A stretch of DNA of 64,000 nt. It comes from Bacteroidota bacterium. GTDB lineage: Bacteria > Bacteroidota > Rhodothermia > Rhodothermales > Bin80. Positions within the stretch are counted from its first letter, which is position 1. The number at the start of each line of letters is the position of its first letter. Below, piece after piece: positions 1-58,855 of this stretch. Position numbers and translations under genes: made by a program. The notes beneath the pieces were generated by a model. The model saw nothing but the letters and a program-made list of their open reading frames with translations, was not told the DNA's origin and made no database searches. The stretch lies in assembly GCA_026708685.1 (NCBI GenBank), contig JAPOUL010000016.1, positions 1 through 64,000 of the forward strand. The letters are read 5' to 3'.

Positions 1-34
1 ATTCACAAAAAATCAGTTAAATTCGCCTAAAACA

Positions 35-53
35 GAGGTTTTGCAAAAGGCTC
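35..53. repeat. IS/MITE-like terminal inverted repeat at the left edge
   Basis: The 19-base sequence GAGGTTTTGCAAAAGGCTC here is identical to the right terminus of the complete 99-bp element at 19151-19249. The bases just inside it (CTAAAACA, 28-35) resemble the inner part of that element's left terminus. It therefore looks like one end of a related mobile element, the rest of which lies outside the window to the left. No transposase fragment is visible in the remaining 34 bases. The element family cannot be assigned from the terminus alone. Confidence 0.55.
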
Positions 54-3385: not shown

Positions 3386-6300
3386 CTAAAATTTTAATGA
3401 GCTTTGCAGATGGATACTCACATTTCCAAAGGTGGCGTTATGGTAGTGGGTTAATCCTGACATCCCTACTGACATCCATTCCCACGGTCGTAGTTCGCCA
3501 CCCAATCGAAAGACTTGACCACTTGATAGTTGAGTAACTCCAACGATTGAACGGGCAGTTCCATGGCTGAGGGGTATTCCATAGGCCAATTCTACATCTG
3601 TGCGATGCAGATTGGAACTGGGTGGATTTGCATCCAGAATCGTTTGCTGACGATACAAGCTCATCCCTTGACTTAGCCCATAGGATGGACGCAGACGTAT
3701 CATTAAGCCCTTGGATGGATGACCGAACTGAATGGATCCAGACACACCCCATTCGGTGAACCCTTCTGTACTGTGGAGGATAAGGCTTTGGGAGCGCAGG
3801 TCTCCATGCAAGTTCCATTGTGGGTAGGCAATCCGTACTCCACCCCCAACTTCCAGTCCTACGCCCGTTTCAGCATCTCCGCCATCCTGACGTATATTTG
3901 CCTCCACGAAGGGGAGAATCCCATCAGCGATCCTGAAAGCAGTTTCCATTCCTAAACGGACCCGAACCACTTCTACCCGGATTCCATCGAAATCTATCTT
4001 GCCATCAGCGTAGAGAACATCACCAAAATAATCTACTTGAGTAGAATTGACCGATGCAAGATGACCTCTTAATCCAAGCGATCCATATGTGGATGTCAGG
4101 TCTTCATCTAAGAGGTGATCTTCAAAATCTCCCTGACCATAGCCTCCACCCATCCATACTCTCCAGTCTTCACCTTCGTAGGATACATAAGGATAGATTC
4201 CTGTGAGAGATGAATTGATATCTCTGGGAATTCCATAGAATTCAAAGGACCCATCTCCCTGACTGTGGGAAATCATCATTCCAAAAAGCCATCCTGCGTT
4301 CCAGCGATAGTCCGCTCCCAGCATTGCAGTTGAAACATCTCCATGTATGGTTAAGGATTCATCATCGCGGCTACTGAAACGTCGGAATGCTCCTCGCCCC
4401 CAGACGCCAAAACTGCCTCCTGATACAGCAGTCGCTTGTGAGATTCTGCAACCTGACAGTAATTCACCTAAGGATGGAGTCCAAGTGGAGTTGGCATGCC
4501 AAAGTTGGACTATATCTGAGCGTTGAGTAGCCGAGCAGGTGGGGGCCATCGGTTGTAATCTCTCTAGGAGTGCCTCGGTGAGATGGACAGATGCAGTACG
4601 AATGAATCGGGCTGTATATGCCACATAAGCCGGTCGGAATGAATCAATTGGGAAAGGATCATCATTCAGAATGACGGCTTGGCCCACAGATTTGTTTATT
4701 CTCACAGAGTCGGAAGATTCAAGATGAACGAAAAACGTTTTTTCATGCAACGCCTGATCGTCCTGTAATAGGGATACTTCAATCGTTTGTTGAATCATAC
4801 CCGGGTCAAAACGTAACTCCCCAGTCATCAATGCGTAATCTTGACCGGCCGTAGCAGTCCCGTCTTGAGTATGATACTGAACCGTAATCGGGTAGGGGCT
4901 TGGATGAGACAGATGTACGTTAAAGGTCAAAAATCCATCACCCCCGCTCACCATCGCATCATCAATCGTGACGCTTGCACTACCTTCATCGTCTATAATC
5001 GTAGCGATGGCTTCATGATCACCGATGATGACTCTCTGTGAAGGGCTGGGATGTTCAAGTTTGACGTAAAACGTTTTGTCACCGTCTATCTCTTCATTAT
5101 CTGCAATGACAAACTGAATGACTCCTTGCGTTCCACCGGGATCAAAGATGACAACTCCTCTTGAGGACGTATAATCCTCACCAGTCTTGGCGGACCCGTC
5201 TTCTGATTGATACTGAACGGTCACTACTTGATCAAGGGGTGCACTCAGAAATACGGGTACCTGAATGAGACCTGCATCTTCTCGGACAGACGTATCTTCA
5301 ATGGTGATGACTACCTTATCGTCATAAATGATCTCAACTTCCACAGAAGCTGGTTCAAAGCTACTTCCAAGTGCGTTGAGTGTGAGTGTGATGTTGGGCT
5401 GATTGGCAACTTCAGGGTCATCCACAGCAGTAAGGGTAACGGATTGAGGCACATTCCACGCTTGTGGGCCTGTTGGAGTAAAGGTCAGTCGGTTGGGTGA
5501 TACGTCTATATCCGAATTTTCATGCCCTGAAATAGCCACCGTTACATTAGTCAATGGCTTTGATGATAATTGAACATTGAATGTTGATGATGGACCACCT
5601 TCTTGAATGGTCAAATCTTTTTCGGATACCTCAATTCGCTGCTGATCAACGTCATCAATGATTACCTCAATCGTTTCAATAACTCCGTCATAATCCTCAC
5701 CGCCCCGTGCGTTTAGTTGTATGGAAACCCGATCATTCGGCAGAGCATCGTCATCTTTAAGAGCATACAGGTCAATTTTCTGAATCTGATTCTGATCAGA
5801 GAGAGTAAACATGGTGGGAGAGTTCTCCAGTCGGATACCAGTCCCCAATACATTCACAGTAACCGTTACCTGTGAAATCGGCACAGTACTGAGTTTGACT
5901 GTAAAACTTCCAGTGTGGCCTTCTTGGATATTCAAAGAGGTTGGAGAGGTGAATAACTTGGGCTCATTCGTATCGTTAATGGTTAATTTCAGGTCTACTC
6001 GTTGAGCCGATCCATAGTCTCCCCCGGTAGCTGTATGGGTGAGGGTCAGGTGTTCATTTTTAGCGTCATCATCCCTCATAGCACTCACAGTGACCGTCTT
6101 GGGATCATTCCAGTTGATGGTTGAAAAAACTAGCCTTGATTGAAGACCGCTTGTAACTGCATCCGCATCAACGGTGACCTCTTTTTGCGCCCCGGTAATG
6201 TTCACGGTCACCACTGATGATGGTTGAGAACTTAAGCTGACGGTATAGTTCCCGGTAGATCCCTCATTGATCGTCAATGATGATTTGCTCACCTGTATAG

Positions 6301-9300
6301 CCACATCTTCATCATCATCCACTGTCACAGCTACGATAACGGGATCAGCATCATCGTAATCACCACCAGAGGAATCATGGGTGAGAGTCACTTGATCATT
6401 GATTGCATCCTCATCCGATCCAGCAAGGACCATAATGGATTTGGGTTGGTCCCAGTTTGCCGTTGTAAAGGTCAAAGATGATTGATTGCCAGTTACAATG
6501 GGATCGGTGTCAATGGCCACCTGTCCTTCAGAAACGGACACATCAATTGTCACAGTTGCTGTTGGCTGTGTAGACAGTCTTACGGTGTAGGACATAGTGC
6601 TTTCTTCTTTGATCGACAAACTTGATTGACTCACTCGGATGGATGGAGTATCCTTGTCATCAACAGTAACCCTCACGTTCACAGGATCGGCGGATCCATA
6701 GTTAGCCCCAGTTGCTGTATTGGTCAAGGTAACTGGGGGATCATCCATTGCATCTTCGTCGATTTCTACACTCACATGAACACTTTGGGGCTTGTCCCAA
6801 TTTGTAGCTGTGAACTCCAGAAGGGTCTGGTCGCCCGATGCGTCAAGGTCGGTATCCACGGTCACATCTTCAGAAGCACCAGAGACTGAAACTCTAACAG
6901 TCCCCAACGGAGCAGTGGCTAAATTGACTTTGTAGGAAGAACTTGTTCCCTCAGTGACATCCAGCTGCAACGGAGTTACGACTAGTCCAACATTATCATT
7001 GTCTGTCACCGTTACCTCAACATCTATGGGAGTAGCAGTTGCATACTCGCCTCCAGAAGCCGTATTGGTCAGGGTTGCATCATCCTTGATTCGGTCGGAA
7101 TCATCACCAGCTTGAACAGTCACGATTTGATTGCTATTCCAATTTGAACGGGTGAATGTCAGTGTAGATTGGTTGCCCGCGAGTGAAGGATTCGTATCTA
7201 CGGTCACTTCTCCTGACATACCAGAAACGGTAACGGTTACATCCAGCGAGGGGAGAGTCGCCAACTTGACATTGTAGGTATGACTGCTTTCTTCCAATAC
7301 TGTTAGTTTTTGAGGATCGACTACTAATTCGGGCTGATCATTATCGGTCACATTTACCGTTACTGGAACTGAAGGAGCTGCTCCATAATCTCCACCCTCG
7401 GCGGAGTTCGTCAGGGTGACGATATCATTGGTTGTATCATCATCATGGCCTGCATGGACGCGGACATCTTGAGTCTGATCCCAATTGCTTGCGTTAAAAC
7501 TGAGGATTGATTGATTGCCCAATTGAACAAGATCGGTGTCTACAGTCACCTCGCCTTGGGATGCAGAAATTCGTACGGTGACGTTGTCCGATGGACCCGG
7601 TTGTGTTGCAAGTCTCACGGTATAACGTGTACTCTTTTCTTCTACAATGTCCAGTTCAACTGGGGACACCATCAAGGCGGGTGTATCAGAATCCTTGACC
7701 GTCACAATGACATTGACGGCCTTTGCCGTTCCATAATCACCGCCAGAGGCTGTATTGGTCAGGGTTACTCGGTCATCACTCGTATCATCATCTGAATCTG
7801 CCTTGACCGTGACTTCCTGAAATGCATCCCAGTTATCAGTCGTAAAGGTGAGTGTATTTTGATCCCCCGTCTGATTTGGATCCGTATCAACCATCACTTT
7901 GCCAGAGGGATTATCTACCGTAACAGTAACTTCGGCTGAAGGCGTGGTTGCTAACTTTACCTTATAGATTTTCGCATCTCCATCCTCATCAACGGTCAGG
8001 GCAGTTGGTGTTACCTCTAACGTAGCTACGTCAGAGTCCACCACCGTTACGGATACCTCGGCTGACGTATTTTGGTACTCTCCTCCCGAAGCTTGGTGAG
8101 ACAGTTTCGCCTTATCATCAATGGCATCTTCATCAGAGGCAGTCATAACTGTCACTGACTGCGGATTTTCCCAATTTTCAGTCGTAAATGAGAGTGTGGA
8201 TTGATGGCCACTTTGATCACGATCGGTATCAACAGTTATATGATCATTGTCTGAGGAGATGGTCACTTGTACATTCCCAGATGGTTGCATAGCTAAATGG
8301 ACATCATAGGTGTCGGCATCACCTTCATTGATCTTGAGGCTCGTTTTACTCACCTCTATCGAAGGCTTTGGAGGAAGACCTTGATCGATCACACGCACGG
8401 TAACCTTACCAGATACATCATCAAACCCACCCCCAGTAGCTTCCACGGTGAGGACACCCTCTTCATTGACTGTATTATCGTCCCAGACAGCACAGAGTAA
8501 GATTTGATTACCAGCGTCAAGGTCTCCACTGGCTTGGGTTATCTTGGCCGAGGTTTGAGAAACGGTTAGGCTCGGAATTGCGGGATCAGGGCCAGAAACC
8601 TCCAATTCCACATCTCCGCCCAGAGGAAGATGGGATAACTGAATGTAGAGATTTTCACAATCTGGATCCCCCTCTTTGACTTCCTCAACAGTATGCAAGA
8701 TTAACTCCCGAACATCATCATCTTTCACAGTGACCTTCACGAGGATCTCTGGGGTAGAATCGTAATTGCTTCCACTGGCTTGATTCGTTAAAGTGGCCGA
8801 ATCATCGGTTCCATCTTGATCCTGACCCGCAAACACCCGAACTGCCTGAGGTTCGTTCCAGTTGCCCGTCGTAAAGGTGAGAGGAGTGGTTTGTTTGCCA
8901 GATGTATCTGGATCCGTATCAATGGTAACTTCTCCCGACGCACCACCGACTGCAACGTAGACATTACCAGTTGGGATGGTTGCTAATCGTACCGCGTAAC
9001 TTTTATGATCACCTTCATCAATGGTGAACTCGGTAGGTTCCACTATGAGACCCTCTTTATCATCATCAATTTTCTTGAAGGTGTAATCTAAGGTAATCCC
9101 TTCGTATTCTCCGCCATAGGCAGTGATCGTGATCGTTTCAAGATCATCAATCGTGTCATCGTCTTCAAAGAACGAAACTGAAAAGGTTAAATCATTTGAT
9201 GATTTAGGCTTAAATGAGAATAGCTCATCCGACGGATTTACTAAGCATCCATTCGCGTCAACCCTAGAAGTGATCGTCACATGTTGTGGTTTTGGAATAC

Positions 9301-18628: not shown

Positions 18629-19150
18629 TACATGGGGTGTTTATTCATCTAAAGTTCAAATTATAAAGCCAATGAAAGGCTGATTCAGCACGATCATCAT
18701 TCTTCACTGCAAGATAAGGTAAAATACTTTGAATACGTTAAAAATAAGGCACTCAATAAATATAGTACAATTTATTACGGAAAATTAATGATTTGCCCGA
18801 ATAAAAATGGGCAAAACAAGGATTTTTATTAAATCTTTTGAAAATAGTTGCATCCCATACCACGGCAAGCATTGAGATCTTTAACTGTGTAGAAAAATCA
18901 CAAAGGAGTTGCATCAGAGATGAAGAGCTACCATCCATGAATGTATTAGCGGGTAATAACAAAGCGGTAGTTGTGGCAGTTTTTCTGCACGGTCAACACC
19001 AAAACATTTGAAGAGAGGAGAGGTGATTGACCTGTAGTGGTATGTGGTAGAAAGAGAGTTCATACTCAGACATCAATGATTTGTTCCATCGTTTGCATCA
19101 TGGAATGGGCATAGAATTGTTTTGATGCGTTAAACTTACCTCTATAAAGT
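18629..19150. other. Intergenic region upstream of ridA
   Basis: About 520 AT-rich bases between ridA and the MITE-like element. It contains a clean hairpin, TTTGCCC (18793-18799) pairing with GGGCAAA (18810-18816) across a 10-base A-rich loop, followed on the + strand by an AT-rich tract. No gene or tRNA is convincing. A 69-codon minus-strand frame (18753-18962) is probably chance. Confidence 0.4.
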
Positions 19151-19249
19151 GAGGCGTTTGCAAAACCTCTGCGTTTTAGAAAAAATTAATGCACTGATGC
19201 TCTTCTGGTTCGTTTTTTGGAGTTGATCCTGAGGTTTTGCAAAAGGCTC
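19151..19249. mobile_element. 99-bp MITE-like element with terminal inverted repeats and 4-bp target duplication
   Basis: The left end GAGGCGTTTGCAAAACCTC (19151-19169) matches the reverse complement of the right end GAGGTTTTGCAAAAGGCTC (19231-19249) at 17 of 19 positions. The element is flanked on both sides by AAGT (19147-19150 and 19250-19253), a perfect 4-bp direct repeat as left by transposition. There is no coding capacity, so it would be moved in trans. The right terminus recurs exactly at 35-53. The following SDR gene starts 24 bp beyond the right end, so the element sits in its promoter region. Confidence 0.75.
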
Positions 19250-19273
19250 AAGTCAATCACCAACTTGTATATC

Positions 19274-20086
19274 ATGGATCTTGGACTTGAGAGGCGATCA
19301 GCACTCATCACTGGAGCCAGTAGTGGATTAGGGCTTGCAGTTGCTATATCTTTAGCACGAGAGGGATGCAATGTGACTATTTGTTCTCGTGATGAAGCCA
19401 GAATTCAAAAGGCAGCAGAAGCGATTTGTAGATATGATTGGGCTGATTCAGATAAAATTTACCCGCTTGTTTGTGATGTGACGGAAGAAGCACAGGTACG
19501 CCTCTGCATTGAACAATGCGTCAAGCGATTTGGGCACCTGCATATATTGCTCACCAATGCAGGAGGACCGAAGACGGGGCTGATGGATGACTATACTGAA
19601 GAGGACTGGCGTGATGGATTGGAACTCAATCTGATCAGCACGATCAATTTATGTCGTTACGCATTACCACACCTGCGCTTGGCTGCCCATCAAGATGGGC
19701 ATGCCCGAATTCTAATGCTCACTTCGATTGCCGCAAAACAGCCCATCAGTTCTCTGTATCTATCCAATACATCAAGAGCAGGTGTACAGGGATTTGCCAA
19801 GACTCTATCGGAGGAGGTTGGTAAAGATGGAATTACTGTAAACACTCTACTTCCTGGGTTTACCCGTACGGATCGCCTCCAGCATTTGGTAGATTATCTT
19901 GCCGAGAAAGAGGGAAAAACCAAAGAACAGGTTGAGAAAGGATGGGCTGAGCAAGCATCCCTGAACCGCTTGGGAGAGCCGTGGGAATTTGCCGCTGCCG
20001 CAACATTTCTAGCCAGTCAGCAGGCTGGTTTTATCACCGGGGTAGCTCTGCCCATTGATGGTGGATACTCAAAGCATATTTTGTAA
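19274..20086 (+). CDS. Short-chain dehydrogenase/reductase lacking the canonical Tyr/Lys pair
   Basis: A Rossmann-fold SDR of 270 aa starting MDLGLERRSALITGASSGLG, with the NAD(P) loop TGASSGLG. LTNAGGPK is in place of NNAG, and the C-terminal GFITGVALPIDGGYS is typical of FabG-like SDRs. The catalytic segment reads TSIAAKQPISS then LYLSNTSRAG. Ser is present, but the positions of the usual Tyr and Lys are Ser and Arg. This fits a known SDR branch with an LSN-x2-R motif, whose activity is unclear. An in-frame ATG further upstream (19217) would place the N-terminus inside the MITE-like element and is rejected. The stop codon abuts the mnmA start (TAA-ATG). Confidence 0.85.
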   Translation: MDLGLERRSALITGASSGLGLAVAISLAREGCNVTICSRDEARIQKAAEAICRYDWADSDKIYPLVCDVTEEAQVRLCIEQCVKRFGHLHILLTNAGGPKTGLMDDYTEEDWRDGLELNLISTINLCRYALPHLRLAAHQDGHARILMLTSIAAKQPISSLYLSNTSRAGVQGFAKTLSEEVGKDGITVNTLLPGFTRTDRLQHLVDYLAEKEGKTKEQVEKGWAEQASLNRLGEPWEFAAAATFLASQQAGFITGVALPIDGGYSKHIL

Positions 20087-21295
20087 ATGAAGCAAAGAGT
20101 ATTGGTGGCCATGAGCGGGGGAGTGGATTCCTCGGTAGCTGCTGTTCTCCTACACAAGCAGGGGTATGAAGTCATCGGGATCACCATGAAAACATGGGAT
20201 TACAGCGAAAGTGTGCCTCATCGTACTGGGAAAGAGGTTGGCTGTTGTACTCTGGATTCCATGAATGATGCACGTCAGGTTGCTCTTACCCACGGGTTTA
20301 CTCATTTCATAGTAGATATTAGAAAGGAGTTCGGCGACTGGGTGATTGAACGATTTACCGATGAATATCTCGCGGGTAGAACGCCTAACCCCTGTGTTCT
20401 TTGTAACACACATATCAAATGGGATGCTTTATTGCAAAGAGCCGATGATCTTGATTGTGCACTCATTGCAACCGGGCATTATGCTCGGGTCCGTCAAGAA
20501 AACGGACGGTCTATTCTGTCCACTGGTTTGGATCTCAATAAAGATCAGAGCTATGCCTTGTGGGGGCTTCCACAGCATCAACTTGCTAGAACCGTCTTCC
20601 CACTGGGTCACTATGAGAAACCAGAGATTCGTCATCTGGCTGAACAATTTGGGCTGTATTCCATTGCCCAGAAACCTGATTCGTACGAAATCTGCTTTAT
20701 TCCTGACAATGACTATCGACGTTTTCTGAGAGATCGAGTGCCTAACCTTGACAAAAGTGTCAGTAATGGTCCGATAATTCTATCGGATGGAACCGAAGTA
20801 GGACGACATAAAGGATATCCTTTCTATACCATTGGGCAAAGACATGGACTCAACATTGCATTGGGTTACCCTGTGTATGTTTCATCGATTGATCCCAATA
20901 CCAACACCATTACCGTCGGTACTCAAGATGAACTGTTTCACCAAACCTTGGTCGCTCATCAGATCAACTGTGTTAAGCATTCTTCCATTGATCAGGAGCA
21001 ACCTGCAATGGCGAAGATTCGTTACAAGGATCCTGGTGCCCCCTGTGTGGTTCGTCAGACAGCTCGCGATGAATTGCAGGTATCCTTCCTTGAATCACGA
21101 AAAGCAATTACACCTGGACAATGTGTTGTGATCTATGAAGGTGAAGATGTGTTAGCGGGTGGTTGGATTCAGCATGTGGTGGATTCACCAGAAAAGATCG
21201 GGCTTTTTGATGCATCAAACGCTTCTCATGCTCTGCATAGTGATGATTCCGATGACAGGCTTGACCTGTCGTCCAGCTCCGTCTCCCGATCCTGA
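20087..21295 (+). CDS. mnmA: tRNA-specific 2-thiouridylase MnmA
   Basis: MnmA thiolates U34 of tRNA-Glu, -Gln and -Lys, using ATP and a sulfur relay. The PP-loop SGGVDSS is at 10-16. The catalytic cysteines are Cys106 (NPCVLCN) and Cys203 (YEICFIP), with GHYAR and KDQSYALW motifs between them. The protein is 402 aa, longer than the ~360-370 aa usual. The last ~35 residues after GGWIQHVV are an Asp/Ser-rich tail encoded by DNA that also encodes, in another frame, the start of the next lipoprotein. The gene begins directly after the SDR stop codon, so the two are probably translationally coupled. Confidence 0.95.
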   Translation: MKQRVLVAMSGGVDSSVAAVLLHKQGYEVIGITMKTWDYSESVPHRTGKEVGCCTLDSMNDARQVALTHGFTHFIVDIRKEFGDWVIERFTDEYLAGRTPNPCVLCNTHIKWDALLQRADDLDCALIATGHYARVRQENGRSILSTGLDLNKDQSYALWGLPQHQLARTVFPLGHYEKPEIRHLAEQFGLYSIAQKPDSYEICFIPDNDYRRFLRDRVPNLDKSVSNGPIILSDGTEVGRHKGYPFYTIGQRHGLNIALGYPVYVSSIDPNTNTITVGTQDELFHQTLVAHQINCVKHSSIDQEQPAMAKIRYKDPGAPCVVRQTARDELQVSFLESRKAITPGQCVVIYEGEDVLAGGWIQHVVDSPEKIGLFDASNASHALHSDDSDDRLDLSSSSVSRS

Positions 21296-56935: not shown

Positions 56936-58031
56936 GTGTTCGGAATGTATGGGCGATGACTTCCATTTGGCGAAGAAATTCTCGCTTCGAGAAGTTAGGG
57001 GCGAACACCATTCCATCAATGAGATAGAGTCGTTGGCTGGATTCATCATAAAATGCATAGGTTAAAAAGGGGCCTCCCATCCCAAATGGGAATTTACGTC
57101 CATTTTCTCGACCGACCATATGCCATAATCCCCTAAATTCAATCGCATAGCGCTCCTTAAAATTAATTTCCTGAGCAGTCATCGGTCGCCGGCGGTCAAT
57201 CTCAATCCATCCACCGGCTGTGCCACCAATATACATTTGTGTCAGGGAATCCCGAGTAGCCACCATCCATTCAGGATTCAGTTTGGACGGATCGGCTTGA
57301 TCTTCGTAATAGACAAAAACACTTCGCCAGGTTTCCGTCAGTGTACGGCGGAGCCATACGAATTGAGTCGTGTCTAGAGCAATAAAATAGTCATGCTGTC
57401 CATGAACGGCAAATCCATGTCGGTTCATGATCGTTTCCTCCAGATCGTGCTGGCGGCCAAGATCAAACATTTCACGATGCAGGCGTTGTCTGGAGATGGT
57501 ATTATAGTGGTATCTCAATTCATCAGAATAGTCTTCAAGAGATGCAATCAAATCATCCGATGAAGCTCCGACAAGATAATAAACCAATTGGCTTCTGCGC
57601 CACTGGTTGGGTCTTGCTACAAGAGCAGGTGAACCCTCATTAATCATCTGACGCACGGAGTCATCGCTAAAGATTGCGTTCAGGTATTGATGTTCAAGAC
57701 TTGCCGAAGAAGAAACGGAATCAGATGATATCAAGCCAACGAAGAGTACATTTTTACGCTCCTTCACCATATCAAAGATGGCATTTGAAGTCAGGCCAAT
57801 CGCGGTAAGATCAAATTCTGGTTCAACGGAGGGCAAGGTTTCAATTCCACCACCTATATGGATTCGCAGGGCTTCACCGACATTCCCATTCCAGAGAGCT
57901 GAATCAATCACCACAGTCATCTGGCCTTCCTCTCCAATAGCATCAGGACGAAAGTCCCCCCCCAGCAAACCACCATCACCACATCCGATAGCAGATACTG
58001 TAACAAGGGCGAAGAATAAAATTCGTAGCAT
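56907..58031 (-). CDS. DUF4837-like lipoprotein
   Basis: A protein of about 374 aa from the ATG at 58031, starting MLRILFFALVTVSAIGCGDGG, a clear lipoprotein signal with lipobox SAIGC. The mature part begins with FRPDAIGEEGQMTVVIDS and has LRIHIGGGIETLPSVEPEFDL. It ends with a segment containing WHMVGRENG and GGPFLTYAFYD, as in DUF4837 proteins of Bacteroidota. A frame from 58121 would overlap trpA by about 80 bp and hide the signal peptide. It starts 8 bases after the trpA stop, so it is probably transcribed with the trp genes. Function unknown. Confidence 0.82.
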   Translation of the reverse strand: MLRILFFALVTVSAIGCGDGGLLGGDFRPDAIGEEGQMTVVIDSALWNGNVGEALRIHIGGGIETLPSVEPEFDLTAIGLTSNAIFDMVKERKNVLFVGLISSDSVSSSASLEHQYLNAIFSDDSVRQMINEGSPALVARPNQWRRSQLVYYLVGASSDDLIASLEDYSDELRYHYNTISRQRLHREMFDLGRQHDLEETIMNRHGFAVHGQHDYFIALDTTQFVWLRRTLTETWRSVFVYYEDQADPSKLNPEWMVATRDSLTQMYIGGTAGGWIEIDRRRPMTAQEINFKERYAIEFRGLWHMVGRENGRKFPFGMGGPFLTYAFYDESSQRLYLIDGMVFAPNFSKREFLRQMEVIAHTFRTLEETQPEGI

Positions 58032-58039
58032 GATGTATC

Positions 58040-58855
58040 TTAAAGAGTTGGTTTGAGCGAGCGGATAAATAGTGTCAGCTTCTGGCAACGCTTTTGCAGA
58101 GTCAGGTCTGAATACCCCCAAAGGCGTTTAATTTCCTTGATCACAGCTGAGCCAACGATAAAGCCATCGGTATGTTTGGACAGCCGCTTGGCATCTTGGT
58201 GAGATTGAATGCCAAAGCCAACCATCAAGGGGTTCTTATCAATGATGTGGCGTGCATCCTTTAAATAGGAATTGATCGTATCCTGCTGTCCATCCAATCC
58301 AGTTCCCGTAAGACCAGTAATGGAAACGCAATAGACAAATCCATCGGATAATTGATCAATCTGCTTCATGCGCTCAATGGATGTATTCGGTGCAACGAGA
58401 AACACCAAATGAAGACGATCCTGCTGGGCATGGTCACGGAGCATGGATGCTTCCTGGGGTGGAAGATCAGGAATGATGAATCCATCTGCTCCAGCGAGAG
58501 CTGCCTCAGTACAGAATGTGCGAATGCCAAATTTTAGGATGGGGTTAATATATCCCATTAGAAGGAGGGGAGTCTCACTGGTTTTTCGAAACGCTCTGAC
58601 GGCATCCAAAGTACTTTTCATCGTAGCCCCTGCCTGAAGAGCCGTAGTACTTGAATGTTGGATGGGTAACCCTTCGGCCAATGGATCGCTGTGGGGCATA
58701 CCCAATTCAATAAAGTCGGCACCTCCTTGATCAATCGCATGAAGCAAATGAAGTGTATCATCAGGACTTGGAAATCCACTGGTCAGAAAGATTCCCATCG
58801 CTTTTTGCCCTCTTTGCTGTAGCGAATGGAGTTTGATAGACAATCGTGAACTCAT
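58040..58855 (-). CDS. trpA: Tryptophan synthase alpha chain
   Basis: A 271-aa TIM barrel that cleaves indole-3-glycerol phosphate to indole and glyceraldehyde 3-phosphate, passing indole to TrpB through a tunnel. Catalytic Glu50 (E. coli Glu49) is in DFIELGMP. The position of catalytic Asp60 is Glu61 here (SDPLAEG), a conservative but notable change. The phosphate-binding GLTGTG and VGFGIQ segments are present. Its ATG overlaps the trpB stop codon by four bases, showing translational coupling. Order on the minus strand: trpF-trpB-trpA. Confidence 0.94.

Follow-up and report, generated by a model that had tools for sequence, protein, structure and literature searches.

The window, a stretch of 64,000 nucleotides at the start of contig C149 of the host genome (G000; 3.83 Mb in 170 contigs), holds a 99-bp element that occupies the intergenic region between ridA, on the minus strand, and the gene for an SDR oxidoreductase, which mnmA follows (Table 1). 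The first-pass annotation had described 19-bp inverted ends with 17 matches, AAGT on both sides and a distance of 24 bp to the SDR start, and direct reading bore this out: the terminal inverted repeats agree at 17/19 positions around an interior of 61 bp, and the ATG at 19274 lies 24 bases past 19250. That start is itself supported by the motif M(D/N)LGL, which begins at the same place in 10/10 genus genomes, the SDR gene being found in all of them. The element contains no transposase gene or other coding content, and an Rfam search of the window returned only two tRNAs and no match to the element. Because its ends are inverted repeats, its transcript would be expected to pair into a long hairpin, with a predicted energy of -32.9 kcal/mol (z -3.1). 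Three sites in the window fit the terminus pattern when up to 3 mismatches are allowed, where 0.06 would be expected; the third of them is at 35-53.

Table 1 Features of the window around the 99-bp element and at the contig edge
Feature	Position	Strand	Remarks
Contig-edge fragment with the same terminus	1..53	-	Same sequence as the end of contig C50; putative end of an autonomous IS of the host
Target-site duplication AAGT, left copy	19147..19150	.	Read directly
Left terminal inverted repeat	19151..19169	+	GAGGCGTTTGCAAAACCTC; read directly and found by terminus pattern search
MITE	19151..19249	+	99 bp; identity 99% with one copy, on another contig, and ~73-94% with most others
Right terminal inverted repeat	19231..19249	-	Plus strand reads GAGGTTTTGCAAAAGGCTC; minus strand GAGCCTTTTGCAAAACCTC
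Target-site duplication AAGT, right copy	19250..19253	.	Read directly
SDR oxidoreductase gene, downstream of the insertion	19274..20086	+	Context
mnmA, next gene past SDR	20087..21295	+	Context

A search for the terminus across the genome had been proposed in the first-pass annotation, with the caveat that a lone copy would speak against transposition; the search found other copies in number, and that objection falls. About 40 places in the host genome resemble the 99-bp element, a 14-base half-terminus with at most 2 mismatches matches 229 times (47 times for the reversed control), and the genome holds at least 60 distinct family insertions belonging to several subfamilies. We collected 66 distinct insertions from the loci and stretches read in the host: 43/66 are exactly 98 bp long, none has direct repeats of 5 bp or more, and exact 4-bp direct repeats flank 43/66, where re-paired flanks give an expectation of 1.2; the 66 probably include some false pairs, a 94-bp candidate at L028 among them, which makes this last fraction slightly conservative. 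The insertions keep away from genes: seven of 54 lie within an ORF of 100 aa or longer, compared with 56% expected. As the closest copy is 99% identical, the subfamily of the window element was probably active recently.

The copies are not all of one build. One (L012:1504-1601), flanked by a GAGT duplication, is chimeric, its left half deriving from one subfamily and its right half from another; elsewhere, three MITEs of different subfamilies lie within 900 bp (L106:1704-2595; host contig C170, ~57200-58100). Short forms of ~60 bp occur at L116:2418-2478 (host contig C18), L028:1479-1538 and L030:1486-1545, some with intact 4-bp duplications, which suggests that these short forms can also move. 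Across the family the interior keeps its length and, in part, its sequence, with a partly conserved core, ATATTGCTCTGAAGCACCTG. That the near-constant 98 bp and this core, kept across diverged subfamilies and species, reflect selection on the interior instead of simple descent seems to us unlikely, if worth bearing in mind; such selection might act through the spacing of a transposase-DNA complex or through a shared RNA- or protein-binding function.

Among 39 genomes, the host included, the family is present only in the host and in two of its nine genus-mates, G005 and G001. The first-pass annotation had named the same sequence at this locus in distant relatives as counterevidence, but the insertion is absent upstream of the SDR orthologue in 9/9 genus-mates; their upstream sequence has diverged too far to reveal an empty site to the base. 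In G001 a separate insertion, a decayed member of that genome's own subfamily, sits ~170 bp upstream of the gene (L126:1320-1400). The many copies, the 4-bp duplications, the patchy distribution and the absence from orthologous upstream regions fully sustain the original view of the element as a non-autonomous transposed sequence.

Further afield, in two other uncultured bacteria, loci L160/L164 (PVC group) and L186 (genome G042) carry elements of ~100-131 bp, 3/5 with exact 4-bp duplications, whose ends are near-identical to those of the window element but whose interiors differ and whose hosts are distant. Many terminus copies are also present in G039, G041 and G042, which are distant genomes from the PVC group and others, and many G042 contigs break near the terminus. 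Most exact terminus matches in a public genome scan lack a partner end and were treated as chance or unresolved; the SDR region, as a query against plasmids, gave no match, and a literature search with the terminus string found nothing.

The first-pass annotation could not name a parent IS and proposed looking for one with the same ends, and such elements exist in the genus. A terminus scan of G001 found many contigs broken at it, with two end types, GAGCCTCTTGCAAAACCTCTGGATCG and GAGCCTCTTGCAAAACCTCTGAGCTC, each common to several contigs, the pattern that a collapsed multi-copy IS would leave at its two ends. Running inward, a diverged G001 copy encodes a transposase fragment with DUF772 whose best NCBIfam match is IS1182; judged from these sequences, G001 looks to hold several copies of an IS1182-like IS, whose two ends its contig ends resemble. 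With the protein of this fragment as query we located an intact IS of 1646 bp in G006 (L188:579-2224), with left end GAGCCTCTTGCAAAACCTCTG, other end GAGCCTCTTGCAAAACCCT and a 4-bp duplication, TAAT. Its product is a 382-aa transposase with DUF772 and DDE_Tnp_1, again with IS1182 as best NCBIfam match; by domain, the relatives' IS transposase scores above cut-off for PF05598 and PF01609 and just above it for PF13751. Against NF033551 (NCBIfam IS1182), still its best match, the relatives' transposase reaches 85.6 bits and the transposase of ISUnCu17, annotated as IS1182-like, 80.2 bits; neither attains the curated cut-off of 270, and we therefore call both IS1182-like only. The nearest annotated plasmid relatives are of the IS1182 family.

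The left end of the G006 IS matches the right end of the window MITE at 18/19 positions and its left end at 16/19, and the G001 IS ends score the same (18/19 for the right end, 16/19 for the left). Both the G006 IS and the MITE have a 4-bp duplication, whereas the IS is far longer, encodes a DDE transposase and has an unrelated interior. Position 7 of the ends differs between species: it is T in 122/124 MITE ends of the host and C in 20/26 of those of G001, and likewise C in the G001 IS ends and T in the host's candidate IS end. In each species the MITE ends thus appear to carry the letter that the IS ends have at this position, the host's IS end being a candidate. On G001 contig C46 (~6030-6369; the last ~330 bases of L176), a truncated gene for an IS1182-like transposase leads into an apparent CRISPR array of ~5 copies of GCTCAACAAAGGCCGAGGCGTTAACCTCGGCGACAC with ~35-40-bp spacers, the last copy being degenerate.

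Within the host bin, a domain search found no DUF772 and protein searches found no transposase of the IS1182-like type. The end of contig C50 and the start of the window's contig share 53 bp, GAGCCTTTTGCAAAACCTCTGTTTTAGGCGAATTTAACTGATTTTTTGTGAAT, in which the terminus reads GAGCCTTTTGCAAAACCTCTG; together with two common flanking bases they make a 55-mer, as would be expected where short-read assembly breaks at a repeat. Of the host IS candidate only these two contig ends, reaching 34 bp into the interior, are present, and the shared fragment may instead belong to a further MITE subfamily. We infer an IS1182-like IS in the host species, present or past, the body of which is likely missing from the bin because the repeat contig was lost in assembly or binning. 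Other candidates were rejected: of the eight host genes with a DDE_Tnp_1 match, 0/8 are flanked by a terminus pair at IS distance, and the interior next to an unpaired terminus at C156:20131 occurs once only. Between the MITE interiors and the IS found there is no clear similarity, which leaves an origin from an IS through internal deletion a conjecture. The case also suggests that dozens of MITEs can be retained in a draft assembly from which the parent IS is missing.

We treated as observed the transposition signature, the multi-copy family, the absence at the orthologous place, and the G006 IS with its matching ends and 4-bp duplication. The best explanation, to which we give a probability of about 0.88, is that the element is a non-autonomous MITE inserted at AAGT, most likely moved in trans by an IS1182-like transposase of the ISUnCu17 type. 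The DUF772/DDE transposase of such an IS would recognise the 19-bp ends of the MITE in trans and cut the target with a 4-bp stagger, and insertion between ridA and the SDR gene would have duplicated the 4-bp target AAGT; the stagger is deduced from the 4-bp duplications, and the remaining steps are modelled on the IS.

A transposase of another family with similar ends, for example IS5, IS4 or IS1380, is a quite improbable mobiliser. The host does have eight DDE_Tnp_1 matches, and the relatives' transposase also scores against IS5 models, but the terminus pair accompanies the IS1182-like elements of G006 and G001 and ISUnCu17 and none of the host's matches, so that the IS1182-like type is the probable mobiliser. 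The ends, the duplication length and a species-specific base connect an orphan-looking MITE family, from a Bacteroidota genus that is uncultured, with a named transposase type.

The suggestion in the first-pass annotation that the element may supply or disrupt the promoter of the SDR-mnmA pair found no support. A search of the region around the element gave neither a sigma-70-like promoter nor a terminator, a weak null result since the promoters of Bacteroidota differ. Genome-wide, we found no preference of insertions for promoter, co-directional or convergent positions (12 divergent, 12 convergent and 17 co-directional), and an effect on SDR is therefore hypothetical. A regulatory effect on SDR-mnmA is conceivable from position alone; any effect on expression is presumably small or absent. 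That the element is a cis-regulatory or RNA element of SDR-mnmA (a promoter, attenuator or RNA-stability hairpin), retained for that role, is correspondingly very unlikely: its closeness to the SDR start, its folded transcript and the independent decayed relative upstream of the same gene in G001 would fit such a role, but the hairpin is the expected outcome of inverted ends, this copy is absent in nine relatives, and neither the surroundings of the element nor the placement of its kin points to a promoter or terminator. For the SDR gene, the element is one among many intergenic insertions and by itself no sign of regulation. An inverted repeat arisen by chance, or a recurrent motif with a regulatory or RNA role that was never transposed, could account for the conserved length of the interior and the part of its sequence that is shared, but it finds no Rfam match and is already refuted by the exact 4-bp duplications, none of them extending to 5 bp, leaving it practically no standing.

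Comparable elements are known. ISUnCu17, from an Aeromonas plasmid (NZ_AP026405.1), is bounded by GAGCCTCTTGCAAAAG / GAGCTTCTTGCAAAAC and flanked by the 4-bp duplication ATGA; its ends are related to those of the window MITE (12-14 of 19 positions matching) and both have 4-bp duplications, but ISUnCu17 is autonomous, ~1.5 kb long and codes for a transposase. Some IS1182-family members instead target palindromic sequences, for which IS1272 is cited (PMC5678879). The published equivalent is MITEPye1 of Paracoccus yeei, a 159-bp element attributed to the IS1182-family ISPye18, with 18-bp ends like those of ISPye18, 4-bp direct repeats, intergenic locations, a long stem-loop and 1-3 copies per chromosome that are 96-100% identical (PMC11578231). 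By description, the present family resembles MITEPye1 in being non-coding and intergenic, with IS1182-type ends, 4-bp repeats and a stem-loop, and differs from it in its length of 98-99 bp, its dozens of copies and its several divergent subfamilies. It is therefore of an already known type, though it stands out for the number of its copies and their uniform length; the window element itself is an ordinary case, if a well-documented one.
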